This document shows, one piece after another, positions 23,420-31,201 of a DNA stretch of 64,000 nt. A program made the translations under genes and the position numbers. Numbering within the stretch: the stretch's first letter is position 1; the number at the start of each line of letters is the position of its first letter. The stretch comes from Deltaproteobacteria bacterium. Its GTDB lineage: Bacteria > Desulfobacterota > Desulfarculia > Adiutricales > Adiutricaceae. The notes under the pieces were generated by a model. The model had not been told where the DNA came from and did not search any database. It saw nothing but the letters and a program-made list of their open reading frames with translations. The stretch spans positions 36,303-100,302 of the forward strand of contig JAITII010000032.1 of assembly GCA_031279515.1 (NCBI GenBank). Reading direction: 5' to 3'.

Positions 23420-25954
23420 ATGAGCATCTCCAGTTCCATGTATGTTGCCTTGACCGGTATGCGCATGAGCCAGGCAGCCATGGAGACAGCAAGCAACAAT
23501 ATAGCCAATGTCAATACCCCGGGTTACTCCCGCCAGAGGATAAATCTTGCCACTCTGCCTTCCCAGACTCGCAGCTGGGGCCAGATGGGCTTGGGGGTAA
23601 CGGGTGATAATATAATACGTTATCACGACGAATTTTTGACCCGTTCTCTCATAATGACCGGCTCCACCCTAGGTAAAGAGGTGGCCATAAAAAACCAGGT
23701 GGATAATTTAGAGATCTTCTTTAACGAGAGCGCAGGAAATGGCATCAATGCGGCTATGAACGACTATTTTGCCGCCTTCGATCAGTTGGCCGATGAGGCC
23801 AATAATGAGCCCAATAGGGAAGAATTAATTGAATACGCCCAGACCCTGGCCACTCAGTTAAAATATAGAAAAGAAGAGATGGACGAGCTGAGGCTGGATA
23901 CCAATAAAAGAATAGACGATGCTGCAACTGAGATTAACACCCTCATAGCGGAACTGGCCTCTTTAAATAAGGAGATAACCGTATACGAAGACCCTACCTT
24001 AAATAGGCAGGCCAATGATCTAAGGGACACCAGAGAAGAAAAGACCAGGCAACTTGCTGAATACATGGACATAGAGTACTACGAAGACCCCCACGATGGA
24101 CAGTGGACTATAACTACTGGCACGGGTATACCCTTGGTCCTGAAAGAAAGGTCCTTTCCTCTAACTACAAATACCTCCTCCAATGGAGACGTAAGCCTCC
24201 ATACCTCCCACAATGACTATTGGCAAGAGGACATTACAGGCCAGATAACGGGCGGTGCTGTGGGTGGTTATATAGAGTTTAGAGATGAGATCCTAAGTGA
24301 ATACTACAAGCAATACGAGTCCTTTGTGGACGGATTTATCTTCCAGGCCAATAACCAGCATGCCCAAGGTACTGGGCTCTCGCTTATGACAGAGGTCTTA
24401 GGTACCACACAGGTATCCAACCTGGCCTCCGTAGAGATAGACTTTCCAGGGGATGACAATTCCATCCGCATCTCCTCACTGGTTCCCCACCTTGCCTCCA
24501 AAGAGCCCTACGACCCCTATAGTGACCCGGACAATATTGAGGTGCGCTTTGTAAAAAGTGAAAAAGTAACCTCTGAGATCACTTCCACGGTCAAATTTAA
24601 CGAGGACCCGGCCAGGATGAAGTGGGAGATAACTATCACCTTGCCAGTGGATTCCTTGGGAAATGTCTCTGTTACTGCAGCAGAGCTCACTGAATATATC
24701 AATTCGGAAAGGTCTCTTAGCCCCACAGATGGCATAAATTACCTCCCACCCAGGACTGTGGCCTGGAAGGTAGGTGATTTTATCTCCGCAGAAGGTGTCT
24801 TTAACCAGTCGGATACTGGAAGGGTTAATTTCGCTGGTCCCACCTTGCCCCAGGGCCATGAAGAGATAGGCTTTTACTCCCTTTCCAGGTCCCTTAAATA
24901 CACCGCGCCCCAGGGTCACCACCTGGCTTACGATTCCGAGTATGCCACTTTAAAGACTACCCTTATCCATACGGACAATGACATCATCTATACAGCTGTG
25001 GATAAGGGCGAAACAGGTGATAAGATCTCAGTGGAATACGTAAACACAGGGGCAAATCAAAAGCTACTCATAAGTGTTACCCAGGAAGAGGACGGCTCAC
25101 AGCGGATAGTTGTAAACCTCGCAACTGATGTAAATGGGGACATTACCTCCACAGCCGGAGACATTGTTAGCGCCATAAACTCCCACAACGTGGCACGTAC
25201 CCTGGTAACAGCTGAGACCCCACAGGGAGAAACAGGCCTTGGACTTGCCCGGGAGATGGATAGGACCTTTTTAGATAGAAGCGGCTACTTTGAGCTGGTT
25301 ACCTACACAGATGGTGGGGAAGCCACCTTCCACAAGGTAACAGTTACCCCGGAAGACACCTTAGAAGATGTGATAAAACAGATAGCCGATATCCCCGGCT
25401 TAAGGGTGGAATCCGTAACAGACCGCCACGGCAAAGATAACTTACGCATCATAGCAGACACGGGGGTAGAATTTGGTTTTGCCGGTGACAGCTCCGGGGC
25501 CTTGGCCGTCTTAGGTATCAATACTATCTTTACAGGCACATTAGGCAATGACGTGGGCGTCAACCAGATGCTGATAGACAATAGAGAGCTTATAAATGCC
25601 GGTATCATAGACTCCAACGGCGTAAGGGCCCCTGGGAGCAATGAAAACGCCCTGGATATGGCAGACCTCAAGGACAAAAGGTTCGACTTTTACCATCAGA
25701 AGGATGCCACCATTAGCTCCATGTTTAACAGCATCTACTCCAACATAGGTGCCACTGCCCAGGGAGCTACCCGGGACTATGAATTTACCCAAGGTGTCTA
25801 TACCCAGCTCCAAGATCGCCAGGACTCTATCGCAGGCGTTAACCTGGACGAAGAGCTAGCCGACGTCCTGCGCTATCAGTACATGTACCAAGCCTCAGCC
25901 AAGATGATCTCCACCATAGACACCATGATGGAGTCCCTCCTGGCCATGAGATAA
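23420..25954 (+). CDS. flgK: flagellar hook-associated protein 1 FlgK, enlarged (844 aa)
   Basis: N-terminus MSISSSMYVALTGMRMSQAAMETASNNIANVNTPGYSRQRINLATLP; C-terminus GVNLDEELADVLRYQYMYQASAKMISTIDTMMESLLAMR. Confidence 0.95.
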   Translation: MSISSSMYVALTGMRMSQAAMETASNNIANVNTPGYSRQRINLATLPSQTRSWGQMGLGVTGDNIIRYHDEFLTRSLIMTGSTLGKEVAIKNQVDNLEIFFNESAGNGINAAMNDYFAAFDQLADEANNEPNREELIEYAQTLATQLKYRKEEMDELRLDTNKRIDDAATEINTLIAELASLNKEITVYEDPTLNRQANDLRDTREEKTRQLAEYMDIEYYEDPHDGQWTITTGTGIPLVLKERSFPLTTNTSSNGDVSLHTSHNDYWQEDITGQITGGAVGGYIEFRDEILSEYYKQYESFVDGFIFQANNQHAQGTGLSLMTEVLGTTQVSNLASVEIDFPGDDNSIRISSLVPHLASKEPYDPYSDPDNIEVRFVKSEKVTSEITSTVKFNEDPARMKWEITITLPVDSLGNVSVTAAELTEYINSERSLSPTDGINYLPPRTVAWKVGDFISAEGVFNQSDTGRVNFAGPTLPQGHEEIGFYSLSRSLKYTAPQGHHLAYDSEYATLKTTLIHTDNDIIYTAVDKGETGDKISVEYVNTGANQKLLISVTQEEDGSQRIVVNLATDVNGDITSTAGDIVSAINSHNVARTLVTAETPQGETGLGLAREMDRTFLDRSGYFELVTYTDGGEATFHKVTVTPEDTLEDVIKQIADIPGLRVESVTDRHGKDNLRIIADTGVEFGFAGDSSGALAVLGINTIFTGTLGNDVGVNQMLIDNRELINAGIIDSNGVRAPGSNENALDMADLKDKRFDFYHQKDATISSMFNSIYSNIGATAQGATRDYEFTQGVYTQLQDRQDSIAGVNLDEELADVLRYQYMYQASAKMISTIDTMMESLLAMR

Positions 25955-25990
25955 AAAGACCTAAGGGCCCTTGGTAAATCCAAAGACCCT

Positions 25991-26120
25991 GCGCTAATTC
26001 AAAAGCTAGGCGCTAGTTCAAAAGCCATGCGCTAATTCAAAAGCTAGGCGCTAATTCAAAAGCTAGGGGCTAGTTCAAAAGCAAGGGGCTAGTTCAAAAG
26101 CTAGGCGCTAGTTCAAAGGG
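25991..26120. repeat. 19-bp tandem repeat, about 6.8 copies, between flgK and flgL
   Basis: gcgctaattcaaaagctag units at 25991, 26010, 26029, 26048, 26067, 26086, 26105. Confidence 0.96.
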
Positions 26121-26211
26121 AAAAATAGCCCTTTTAGCCTATAAAGCTCAGTTTAAGTCCAAGACAGTTTTATCTTTACATAAATTGGCATCCAAGCTGC
26201 CGGAGGAGAAG

Positions 26212-29200
26212 ATGATCTACCGCACCTCTCAGCGGGGCACCTACCGCAACATAAATAACAACCTTAACCTCTTGTCCTGGCATATAGCCCAGCTGAGTAA
26301 CAAGGTAGCTTCGGAAAAACAGATAAATAAACCCTCCGATAATCCCTCTGGGGCTGCTGCTGTGCTCCGCACCCGCAGCACCCTATCTGAAATAGCCCAG
26401 CACACGGAAAACGTCTCCTTTTCCAATGATTGGCTCACCAATACTGGAAATGTCATGCAGAGCATCAAAGACGTCTTAGATCAGATCTACGTAAAAGCTG
26501 AGCAAGCTGCCACAGATGTCTACACAGCGGACCAGAGAAAGATAATAGCCACAGAGGTGGACCTGCTTTTCCAGACCATCATCCAATTTGGTGACTCTCG
26601 CTTCGGCTTTAACTATTTACTGGCCGGACAAGAGCTTCAGACCCAACCCTTTTCCAATGAGATGAGGGCCCAGGACGTAATAGCAGCCTGCCAAAATAGT
26701 GAAGGCTTTACTGGAAAAGTGGAAAACTATGGGGATAGGGAATATGAGTCCCGTCCGGATCTACCCACCCAGAGCCAGCTCTTTTTGATTGAATGCGTAG
26801 AGGCAGGGGGCATAGATTCCTTAAACTATGCCCACCAAAATGCCGACTCGGTCTCCCAGGCTATAGTAAATGGCACAAATGGCGCCTATAGTCTAACTTT
26901 AACCACCACCTCCCAAGCCTATAGGGATACCACAATAAAGTTCGTAGCTGGACAGGAAAATAATAACTCCACTGGGACTAAGTCAGCTACCTTTAGCTCT
27001 GCCGATAACCAGGTATCTTTTAGCTCCACAAATTCCACCAAGGGCCCTATTGACCTCTACTATACCTATGGCAATAGCGCAGGTACCTACGCTACTGAGG
27101 CAGCAGACGGCACCATAACCGTCTATCTTCAGACAGACCCCCAAGGGGAGCAATCAGTTGCCAGGGCCCGTGACGTAGCCGATGCAGTAAACGCCATTTC
27201 AGCCCAGACTTCCATTAGGGCCGATTACGCCTCCATCCCCTTTAGAGGGGGCATTGTAGAAATATCTAAAGATAGTAATGGCCAGCTGATGCGCACTAAG
27301 CTTTCCATTAATAATAATCTTAGCTATTCGATAAATGACGATGAGATAACTATTTATCTGGAAAGGGGGGCAACAGGCACCGGCCAAGAGGGCACAATTG
27401 TAAGCACAGTGGAAGAGGTGGTAGATTTTATCAATAATACCCCGGAGCTAGCAGAAAGGCTTAAGGCCTCTTATTCCTATCCCGATAGTGCTCTGGCACC
27501 TCCTCCCACCATGGAACCCGTGCAGGGTCCCATTTCCTTTACCCCCTCTGATGCCTATACCCTGGCCTATACTGAGATGACTATACCAGGGACCCACAAT
27601 GACATCAGGTGGTCCATCCTAAATGAGCCGGGTGCAGCTGTGGGCGAGGCGGGAAATGGGGTTACCATCCGCTACGACTTCTACAATCCTCCGGAGCAGA
27701 CTGCCGCCACTACTGCACAGTATAATTCAGCAGAAAATGCCTTAATTATCACCCTAGGGTCAAGCGGCTCGGCCTTTTTGGAGGAATATGCCAGGGCCTA
27801 TACCTCCCCAGCCTCAGCTACTTACGGAAATGCCAAAGAATCGGAGCTAGTTGCCCGTAAATATGCAGTAACAGCTACTGCCCAAGAGGTGATAGACGCA
27901 GTAGCCGCTCTAACAGACGCCCAAAACCCCTTGCATATTGGAGGCGTCCTGGCGGAGGGAAACTCCGGCCTAGGAAAGATGGTGGCCTCCAGCGCCCAGG
28001 TCCTAGCCAAGGGCTATGACCAGCCAGCCCTCTTTAGGGTCTCTCAAGATGGGGGCAAGACCTGGGGTCCCCCCCAGTCCTTTGCAGCCTCTGAGTTCCA
28101 AAACGGGCTCTTTTATAACTCTCAACTGGGACACGCCTCCCTCACTACAAGCCTAGCAGGTGGTGCCAATGACGTGGTCCTCACTGCCAACTACATGGGC
28201 ACCTGGGGCGACGATGTCCGCCTGGAATACCGCCAACCCACCTCAGCCAATCAAGAGGCCTCCATTACCCTAGGTCCCCAGTCCTGGAACATCTGCATTA
28301 ATCTTGCCACAGATGCCCAAGGCCGTGTAACTACCACGGCCAATGACGTAGTGGCTCTAATAAATCAGCATCCAGAGGCCGGCGCCCTGGTGACGGCCTC
28401 TCTGGCCGATTACCACGAGGGGGGAAGCGGCGTGGTAACCAAGATGGACTGCGTGTCCCTCTCTACGGCAAAACCTTATGAGGTAGAAGGGGTAACCCAG
28501 ATTACACCCTTGGGACATGCCACAGCAGCTGTCCGCTTTGCCTATTCCCCTCCTGCCCAAAAGTCACCGGATCTACTCTATCAGGCTATAGAGCACGGCA
28601 ATGCCGGTAATGCCATAGGCATCCGCTACACCCTGTCGGCGGACACCACTATCTACGGTTCTGCTCTACAGTATCAGGACCATGTCTCTATCTCATACGA
28701 GACCCTTTCCAACGGAGACCAGGTGGCCGTAGTCCACCTGGCCTCCGTCTCCCTTCCCAGCTGCCCAGACATCAATACGGAAAGGGAAGCCTATGACGCC
28801 TGGAGGGAACTCTACCCTGTCTATTCCTGCTCCTCTTCTAGGGCCACCACCTCCACAGCCGGGGATGTCCTCCAGGCCCTAGTTGCCAAGAACCTTGCCA
28901 GCCCCGATAGCGCCCTGGTCTGGGCCTCCATGGAGTACAAAGACGAGGGCTGGGATTCCACAGCCAAGGTGGGACCCACCACGGGCACCATTTGGCTCTC
29001 TGGGGGAGATGACACCATCAAAGAAGAGGACTACGGCATTAGCCTTAAGTTTATCCCCGATGGCACGGCCATAGGCGTAGGAGATATCTACCAGGTCTCC
29101 GTAGGTTGGTACAACGGAGACTCCAAAGATATAGATGTAAATGTCATGAACGGCTTCAGGACCGACATCAATACCACCGGAGAAGAGCTCTTAGGCGCCA

Positions 29201-29541
29201 ACGGCGCCTCAGACAATATCATGGATACCATCCAGAGGCTCCTTTGGGCCCTAGAGCATAACTACACGGAAATGGTGGAACAAGAGCTACCTAACCTGGA
29301 AAAGGCCGTCCAGAAGGTAACCATGATGGAAACTGCGGTGGGGACCAAACTTATCCGCAATCAGTTCGTGCAAAACACCTTAGATGACAACCAGTACGCA
29401 GCTGAGACAATACTTTCCGCCACAGAGGACGCAGACTTTACCCGCCTCATAACTGACCTCAAAAATGCCCAACTGGTCTATGAAGCAGTCTTAGGGACGA
29501 CAGGCCTTACTACCAAGCTGAGCCTCTTAAACTATCTTTAA
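26212..29541 (+). CDS. flgL: flagellar hook-associated protein 3 FlgL, giant (start revised to ATG 26212)
   Basis: GGAGGAG precedes ATG 26212; N-terminus MIYRTSQRGTYRNINNNLNLLSWHIAQLSNKVASEKQINKPSDNPSGAAAVLRTRS; C-terminus FTRLITDLKNAQLVYEAVLGTTGLTTKLSLLNYL. Confidence 0.93.
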   Translation: MIYRTSQRGTYRNINNNLNLLSWHIAQLSNKVASEKQINKPSDNPSGAAAVLRTRSTLSEIAQHTENVSFSNDWLTNTGNVMQSIKDVLDQIYVKAEQAATDVYTADQRKIIATEVDLLFQTIIQFGDSRFGFNYLLAGQELQTQPFSNEMRAQDVIAACQNSEGFTGKVENYGDREYESRPDLPTQSQLFLIECVEAGGIDSLNYAHQNADSVSQAIVNGTNGAYSLTLTTTSQAYRDTTIKFVAGQENNNSTGTKSATFSSADNQVSFSSTNSTKGPIDLYYTYGNSAGTYATEAADGTITVYLQTDPQGEQSVARARDVADAVNAISAQTSIRADYASIPFRGGIVEISKDSNGQLMRTKLSINNNLSYSINDDEITIYLERGATGTGQEGTIVSTVEEVVDFINNTPELAERLKASYSYPDSALAPPPTMEPVQGPISFTPSDAYTLAYTEMTIPGTHNDIRWSILNEPGAAVGEAGNGVTIRYDFYNPPEQTAATTAQYNSAENALIITLGSSGSAFLEEYARAYTSPASATYGNAKESELVARKYAVTATAQEVIDAVAALTDAQNPLHIGGVLAEGNSGLGKMVASSAQVLAKGYDQPALFRVSQDGGKTWGPPQSFAASEFQNGLFYNSQLGHASLTTSLAGGANDVVLTANYMGTWGDDVRLEYRQPTSANQEASITLGPQSWNICINLATDAQGRVTTTANDVVALINQHPEAGALVTASLADYHEGGSGVVTKMDCVSLSTAKPYEVEGVTQITPLGHATAAVRFAYSPPAQKSPDLLYQAIEHGNAGNAIGIRYTLSADTTIYGSALQYQDHVSISYETLSNGDQVAVVHLASVSLPSCPDINTEREAYDAWRELYPVYSCSSSRATTSTAGDVLQALVAKNLASPDSALVWASMEYKDEGWDSTAKVGPTTGTIWLSGGDDTIKEEDYGISLKFIPDGTAIGVGDIYQVSVGWYNGDSKDIDVNVMNGFRTDINTTGEELLGANGASDNIMDTIQRLLWALEHNYTEMVEQELPNLEKAVQKVTMMETAVGTKLIRNQFVQNTLDDNQYAAETILSATEDADFTRLITDLKNAQLVYEAVLGTTGLTTKLSLLNYL

Positions 29542-29659: not shown

Positions 29660-31201
29660 TTAGACGAAACGGTTATGTTGTAGGCTGTGCCTTATGTGCT
29701 GGACAAAGAGGGATAAAAGGCAGTTTAACTTCATCAGATTAGTACCTGGCGCGCCCAAGGCAAGCTGACCCTCCTTAAAGGGACGCTCGAACTCAAAGCG
29801 GGCCTTTAAAAAGACCTTGGTAAGCTCTGCGGCCTTTACTAGTGTTAACTCTTTTGCGGGCACCCTTGTCTTTAAGACGCAGCCGCCATCTGCCTGGACC
29901 CCTTGGGTAAGGAAATTCTTATTGGAAATACACATAAGCCCCTGGCCTTTGTCAAAGACTAAATGCACATGTTCAAGTAACTTTTGTAGCCTTAGCTCTC
30001 CAAATTTTTCTTTGAGCTCACCTAGCATCTTATCTATGTTCTCAGTAAGTATGGCATTGGAGGCCTTAAACTTCTTATTTAGCTCTCCCAATGCCAGTAC
30101 TAAGGAGCTGTACTCTATTTGCCTTTCTGCTCTCCTATCGGGGATATAACCAGGGCAATTTACTACAAAAAGCCTTGTACCTTTCTCCCTATTTAAAGAG
30201 CTCAAAGGGAAGTAAAAGTAATCTTGGCTTTCATCGCAAACGCCCCCAGAAAGCTTAGCGGCAAAAATAGACCTTAGTTGCGCATAAAAATGATAGTCCC
30301 AGTCCTCATACCTTAGCTCTTCTATAAGGCTAAGATCTTTAGGCGGAAAGGCTCCCAGCTCCCCCATATGGAAGTGCCTATGGATATAGTAGGTACTTGT
30401 AATATAGCTTAAGTTTTCCTCCATTTTGCTTCTTTCGATTAGCTCCGGGGAATAAACCCTAAATGAGAGGATCCTCCCTTCCCCGTCCACATATAGCCTA
30501 TAGGCTATTTTCTTTCTGTCCCTGGGGGAAATAGGGTCCTCACCTAGCCTGGGGATATAGTCAGGAAAGCGGGAAAAAGCTGATATCCCGTAGAGCTTCC
30601 TATAGAGATAGCGCTCCATGAACTTTAGATCAATGAGGCCATATTTGCCTATAAGCCACTTGTCCCCAAGGACTTTCTCTTTTCTGCTCGGCTTTAAAAG
30701 TTTCCCTTGCCACAAATAGTTCTTCATATCGAAGAAATCCTCTTCCACTAGAGGATCCTTTTCAGCTAGGAGCATAACTATCCGGTATTTGATAGCATTG
30801 TAGACCTCTTGGGGTGGATCCATTAACAGCCCTTTTATATTTAAGACATTAAACTGGCTCTCCAATGCCTTAATAAGATCCAAGGTATTGGGGATTTTTC
30901 GTCCCCAACCGGGCCTTACCAACTGGGTGAGACCCCCTAGCGGGTAATCCTTGATAGCCAATTGGAAATTCGCATAAATTGCTAATGGGTTCTCGCTTAA
31001 ATGAACGTGATACTTGGGCGCCATGCTGGGCGGCTCTATAAGGCAGCGCGTGGGCGTCTTTTCCTCTGTTTCACATGTACCAACTTCGTTTGCTTCCTTT
31101 AAATCAGAACCTTTGTCAGCTTGTACCCTAATGCCACAGGGGCGTAAAAATTGTCCCAAGGCTATAAGCAAAGCCTTAATACTTTTCAAAATACCAGGCA
31201 A
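29660..31201 (-). CDS. hypothetical protein, 513 aa, no family recognised
   Basis: Long ORF on the expected strand opposite a bidirectional terminator. Confidence 0.75.
   Translation of the reverse strand: MPGILKSIKALLIALGQFLRPCGIRVQADKGSDLKEANEVGTCETEEKTPTRCLIEPPSMAPKYHVHLSENPLAIYANFQLAIKDYPLGGLTQLVRPGWGRKIPNTLDLIKALESQFNVLNIKGLLMDPPQEVYNAIKYRIVMLLAEKDPLVEEDFFDMKNYLWQGKLLKPSRKEKVLGDKWLIGKYGLIDLKFMERYLYRKLYGISAFSRFPDYIPRLGEDPISPRDRKKIAYRLYVDGEGRILSFRVYSPELIERSKMEENLSYITSTYYIHRHFHMGELGAFPPKDLSLIEELRYEDWDYHFYAQLRSIFAAKLSGGVCDESQDYFYFPLSSLNREKGTRLFVVNCPGYIPDRRAERQIEYSSLVLALGELNKKFKASNAILTENIDKMLGELKEKFGELRLQKLLEHVHLVFDKGQGLMCISNKNFLTQGVQADGGCVLKTRVPAKELTLVKAAELTKVFLKARFEFERPFKEGQLALGAPGTNLMKLNCLLSLFVQHIRHSLQHNRFV

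Follow-up and report, generated by a model that had tools for sequence, protein, structure and literature searches.

A putative outer-surface domain, also found in phage tail sheaths, recurs in the oversized hook-filament junction proteins FlgK and FlgL of a deltaproteobacterium

The flagellum is unrelated to the contractile phage tail, yet both machines assemble their tubes from subunits that combine a conserved core with an outer part left free. In phage tails, portable accessory domains are already known: the additional domains of type 2 and type 3 sheath proteins are inserted in a conserved core, built from the N- and C-terminal parts of the protein, that forms the tube; they lie away from this tube and possibly stabilise virions or help adhesion (PMC9230969). 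On the flagellar side, giant flagellins show internal duplication of an outer insert (the ‘domain-extension regions’) in a tube protein, in their case FliC, the text of PMC6248924 containing no link to phage proteins that we could find. The Flagellin_IN motif (PF07196) likewise recurs in hook and filament proteins. In Salmonella, weakening the FlgK–FlgL interface leads to more filament breakage under shear (PMC12221982).

Our literature search returned no paper that links the flagellar hook and the tail sheath through an insertion domain; what is new, as far as the literature we found shows, is that an undescribed domain of the portable, accessory kind is also carried by FlgE, FlgK and FlgL, and appears to have been amplified to seven copies.

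FlgK, FlgL and their module copies

The window (the whole stretch of DNA analysed, 64,000 nucleotides) holds flgK and flgL as neighbouring genes, both on the + strand. FlgK (23420–25954; 844 aa) belongs to the junction between hook and filament and contains two copies of the module; over the whole protein it passes the curated cut-off of TIGR02492 (9.7e-97; 325 bits vs 170.75). FlgL, with five copies, does the same for TIGR02550 (2.7e-43; 148.8 bits vs 127.2). The FlgL open reading frame opens at a TTG (26185–29541; 1118 aa), but a Shine-Dalgarno-like GGAGGAG lies just 5′ of the ATG at 26212, which is therefore probably the start, making the gene 26212–29541 and the protein 1109 aa. We take the termite gut to be the probable habitat of this bacterium, the isolate codes of close FlgK relatives looking like those of termite-gut metagenome bins. 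Following flgL, a 513-aa open frame on the opposite strand (29660–31201, −) has no NCBIfam match at E ≤ 1e-4. In one FlgL of family f1 (L031; G018:C86) we see 13 in-frame stops in the main matched piece and more in the other pieces; it is probably a decayed gene.

In both proteins the module copies sit in a non-core middle, between the conserved helical ends that form the tube; the inserts are flanked by the Pfam core domains FlgK_D1, Flg_bb_rod, Flg_bbr_C and Flagellin_N (FlgK_D1, PF22638, matching FlgK aa 95–320), and no model in Pfam, PHROGs or NCBIfam covers the middles themselves. Modules account for ~238 aa of FlgK and ~580 aa of FlgL, and hence for much of the unusual sizes (844 and 1118 aa) to which an earlier note on this DNA had drawn attention, the second figure more likely being 1109.

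The count of two copies in FlgK (K1 and K2) and five in FlgL (L1 to L5; FlgL residues numbered from 26185) comes from an iterated profile; as such iteration may be circular, membership of the module was tested in three further ways. All copies lie on the + strand. K1 (24422–24769, FlgK aa 335–450) aligns with K2 at 98.8% (hhalign, E 1.3e-16), and a profile from order-level outgroups matches FlgK at aa 334–470 with 9e-11. K2 (24932–25297, aa 505–626) is matched at 5.9e-27 by a profile built solely from phage and sheath sequences. L1 (26965–27267, aa 261–361) pairs with K2, L2 and L3 at 93.5, 93.7 and 93.4%, respectively, and with the outgroup profile at 1e-5; L2 (27304–27489, aa 374–435) is shortened, and reaches 98.6% against FlgE, 98.1% against phage and 97.5% against K2. 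Both L3 (27556–28005, aa 458–607; 98.1% with K2, 97.5% with L4) and L5 (28531–28974, aa 783–930) contain an internal insertion, whilst L4 (28126–28479, aa 648–765) is the best preserved copy in FlgL: its pairing with K2 is the best among the seven (99.8%, E 2.8e-28), and the phage/sheath-only profile matches it at 3.8e-21. The earlier note had thus picked out one real FlgK segment (K2) and four correct FlgL segments (27055–27240, 27556–27990, 28177–28450 and 28570–29000, corresponding to L1, L3, L4 and L5), whilst overlooking K1 and L2.

That FlgK and FlgL share one recurrent module, as first proposed in that note, is borne out by HMM–HMM comparison, the test on which the proposal had been staked: with per-position ortholog alignments as input, similarity among the segments is significant, and reversed controls among the seven copies reach 0.1–2.8%. 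Control segments (the FlgK linker, the FlgK C-part and both D1 domains) give ≤ 4% against the seven copies with two exceptions, K1 vs FlgK D1 (22%) and K1 vs the linker (88%), the latter reflecting slices that overlap by 11 residues and so representing no finding. Simple alignment of the FlgK and FlgL inserts gives a Smith–Waterman score of 201 (best of 200 shuffles, 74); the phage/sheath-only profile matches both proteins, FlgK with 8.8e-31 and FlgL with 9.3e-31, where the best of 400 shuffles gives 0.13; and a profile made from FlgK K2 alone finds FlgL L4 at 1.1e-24. Membership is clear for K1, K2, L2, L3 and L4 by HMM–HMM comparison, and backed by some partners only for L1 and L5. The weakest members are L1, L2 and L5, with L1 and L5 the least certain: L5 scores poorly against several other copies (0.3% with L1, 2.8% with K1), being linked to the family through K2 (96.0%), L3 (88%) and the order-level outgroup copies (97.1%). 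On the strength of these sequence comparisons, K1, K2, L2, L3 and L4 are diverged copies of one domain of ~110 residues, to whose family L1 and L5 probably belong.

Structure prediction, also suggested in the earlier note, succeeded for a single module and failed for the larger insert. An AlphaFold2 model of K2, built on an alignment of 16 copies from the window, relatives and phages, is confident (pLDDT 87.5, pTM 0.83), and comprises ~5 strands, then a pair of short helices, then another two strands; the model of the FlgL insert is poor (pLDDT 47). Compared with the PDB, the K2 model finds no match at E ≤ 0.001 (best 0.35, TM ~0.2), and thus no solved structure with an Ig-like fold, whereas five predicted viral proteins match at that threshold (best E 2.2e-7, TM 0.71). 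As modelled, the module is a ~110-residue alpha/beta domain common to K2 and phage proteins.

Distribution in hooks and phage tails

Within its own genome the module is confined to FlgK and FlgL, with no match in the giant flagellin or in FlgE. Both of the latter are themselves oversized. The window opens with the C-terminal part of a 1657-aa flagellin (1–1802, +; continuing upstream to G000:C95:33131), and flagellins of 1650–1717 aa are found in several relatives from family f1. FlgE (12367–16257, −; 1296 aa) carries an Ala/Thr-rich insert at aa ~180–850 that is not the module; the two halves of this insert are alike (score 172, against 105 for the best of 200 shuffles), with a best self-offset of 73 aa.

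Family-level relatives share this layout, with two FlgK and five FlgL copies, and 26 orthologs of FlgL were identified in family f1. In the outgroup families of the order, FlgK contains between one and three copies and FlgL two or three. Bacterial sampling covered 395 genomes of this phylum, 22 of which contain the module; its carriers there, beyond FlgK and FlgL, are contractile tail sheaths, the FlgE of several families and a small number of other proteins. The FlgE carriers include that of an f2 genome; an f6 genome has the module in two FlgE-like genes. Among viruses, the module is present in the tail sheath of an Aliivibrio phage, in a J-like tail-tip protein and in a protein adjoining the major tail protein of a methanogen-associated virus; IMG/VR contigs have the module in sheath and other virion proteins, and some Vibrio plasmid-like records have it in sheath genes. 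Module-like matches also fall in an 873-aa open frame and a frame of >5000 aa (L089 and L091), neither evidently a tube protein, so that the domain may also serve purposes other than decorating tubes.

The sheaths provide the clearest view of the module as a unit. In two sheath proteins from our set (L101 and L102) and those of Pseudomonas phage ZRG1 and Aliivibrio phage H905, it forms a clean insertion of ~117 residues between the motifs GTAPN and AFPLNTPVLV; the sheaths of Pseudomonas phage PPpW-3 and Escherichia phage ep3, 61–63% identical to L102, lack it and run uninterrupted through the site. In sheaths, at least, the module has therefore been gained or lost as a unit, and the ‘additional domain’ of this sheath group is this very module. 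PPpW-3 and ep3 (L138 and L139) contain a different, Gly-rich insert of ~80 residues at another site.

The closest described relatives are phrog_8757 (virion structural protein), which matches 8 of 19 module sequences (best 7.8e-9), and the module-bearing phage proteins, whose copies are the same domain by profile–profile comparison; the members of phrog_8757 are virion proteins, whereas here the module stands in hook-filament junction proteins and in multiple copies. The additional domains reported for sheaths are mostly Ig-like (PMC9230969), unlike the strands and helix pair of the K2 model. Weaker resemblances, leads at most, fall in the first half of the module: to sheath gp20 of Milano phage (PDB: 8fop; E 0.046, not significant) and to Phage_sheath_domII (PF17481), matched below its cut-off by 1 of 19 members (E 0.021). 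One further sheath (L081) has a weak, sub-cut-off PF17481 match just after its module.

Origin of the copies

The earlier note ascribed the sizes of FlgK and FlgL to exchange of modules between them, and proposed domain trees as a way to separate duplication from transfer. In our tree (72 rows, 97 columns, with many open forks), the FlgK copies of families f1, f2 and f3 cluster (88/87), as do the K1 copies of f3 and of one f1 genome (99/95); L4 of f1 joins the second FlgL copy of f3 (99/98), and L3 and L5 each form one clade. Copies hence group by protein and position, from which it follows that positions have been inherited within each protein; recent exchange between FlgK and FlgL is unsupported, and with it the proposed cause of the sizes. 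An older event, in which one junction protein donated its insert and the copies then multiplied, seems to us unlikely: although flgK and flgL adjoin, K2–L4 is the best of the pairings between the window copies and a clade of FlgK with L4 is not rejected (p-AU 0.40), K2 is about equally close to phage copies (HMM–HMM score 153), to FlgE copies and to L4 (158), and FlgE of the f2 and f6 genomes has the module too. The grouping of all FlgK and FlgL copies as one clade gave a borderline result in one of three tests (p-AU 0.038). We also considered segmental copying of a two-module block between the proteins; here the K1–K2 and L3–L4 linkers share no similarity, leaving no visible trace of such copying and counting against exchange more generally, and the best FlgL partner of K1 is L4 rather than L3, and so this candidate was rejected.

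The remaining readings are less probable still. Given the 1657-aa flagellin and 1296-aa FlgE nearby, and the thick filaments that giant flagellins form in two marine gammaproteobacteria (PMC6248924), the outer modules of FlgK and FlgL might have grown to step up to a thick filament; we think this improbable, as three genomes of genus g6 in the same family (G013, G026 and G030) combine FlgL proteins of 1115–1217 aa bearing the same modules with flagellins of ~630–900 aa, and family f2 has modules in FlgE, FlgK and FlgL yet flagellins of ~605 aa. Very little weight falls on the idea that the segments are simply Flagellin_IN, the common repeat of hook and filament proteins. By eye the second half of the module is similar (a helix, and ‘AIN’), 1 of 19 module sequences matches PF07196 (E 0.004), and L1 reaches 39% with hhalign, a weak match and the only one of note; but the copies other than L1 score 0.3–9% against a same-phylum Flagellin_IN alignment and 93–99.8% against K2, PF07196 has 55 positions, about half the ~97–110 of the module, and a Pfam search of FlgK and FlgL finds no PF07196 match at E ≤ 10. 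As the identity of the module, Flagellin_IN is thus ruled out by HMM–HMM comparison. FlgK does have a Flagellin_IN-like segment, separate from the module (25337–25489, +; aa 640–690), which aligns with Flagellin_IN copies at 71% (hhalign, E 3.7e-5) and receives no Pfam call. Least credible of all is convergence of low-complexity or beta-rich sequence: the weakness of L5 and L1 against each other would fit, but shuffled and reversed controls fall far lower than the observed scores, and an ordered motif (NDL.FTA..G..G..I..EY ... LATD..G..TSTA..V..AIN ... LVTA) recurs in the copies. For K1, K2, L2, L3 and L4, convergence is refuted.

A possible outer decoration of flagellar tubes

Our preferred reading, in which we place somewhat better than even confidence, is that the module is a portable decoration domain for outer surfaces, drawn from a pool in common with phage tails and amplified in FlgK and FlgL. 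Given that it is also inserted in tail proteins of phages and in hook proteins of other bacteria, the domain resembles an exchangeable part that decorates the outside of protein tubes. The N- and C-terminal ends of FlgK and FlgL would build the tube, with the inserted modules folding outside it, an outward position that rests on analogy given the poor model of the FlgL insert. So placed, the modules could contact their neighbours, stiffening the hook-filament joint or shielding it against shear; alternatively, they could touch host or mucus material. The module would have entered the flagellar tube proteins from the pool common with phage tail proteins, with transfer in either direction, and then multiplied by duplication inside each of FlgK and FlgL. 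For the broader proposition—that a domain with neither Pfam entry nor solved structure moves between the virions of phages and bacterial flagella, whose tube proteins have acquired it more than once (FlgE in several families; FlgK and FlgL in this class)—we judge the chances to be about even.

If true, the presence of the same undescribed domain in both machines would be a direct case of parts common to flagella and phage tails, and would account for some of the variation in size among hook-junction proteins. It would also define a cassette whose deletion could reveal what it contributes to joint strength or adhesion, and would mean that phage tails and flagella have exchangeable outer parts in common.
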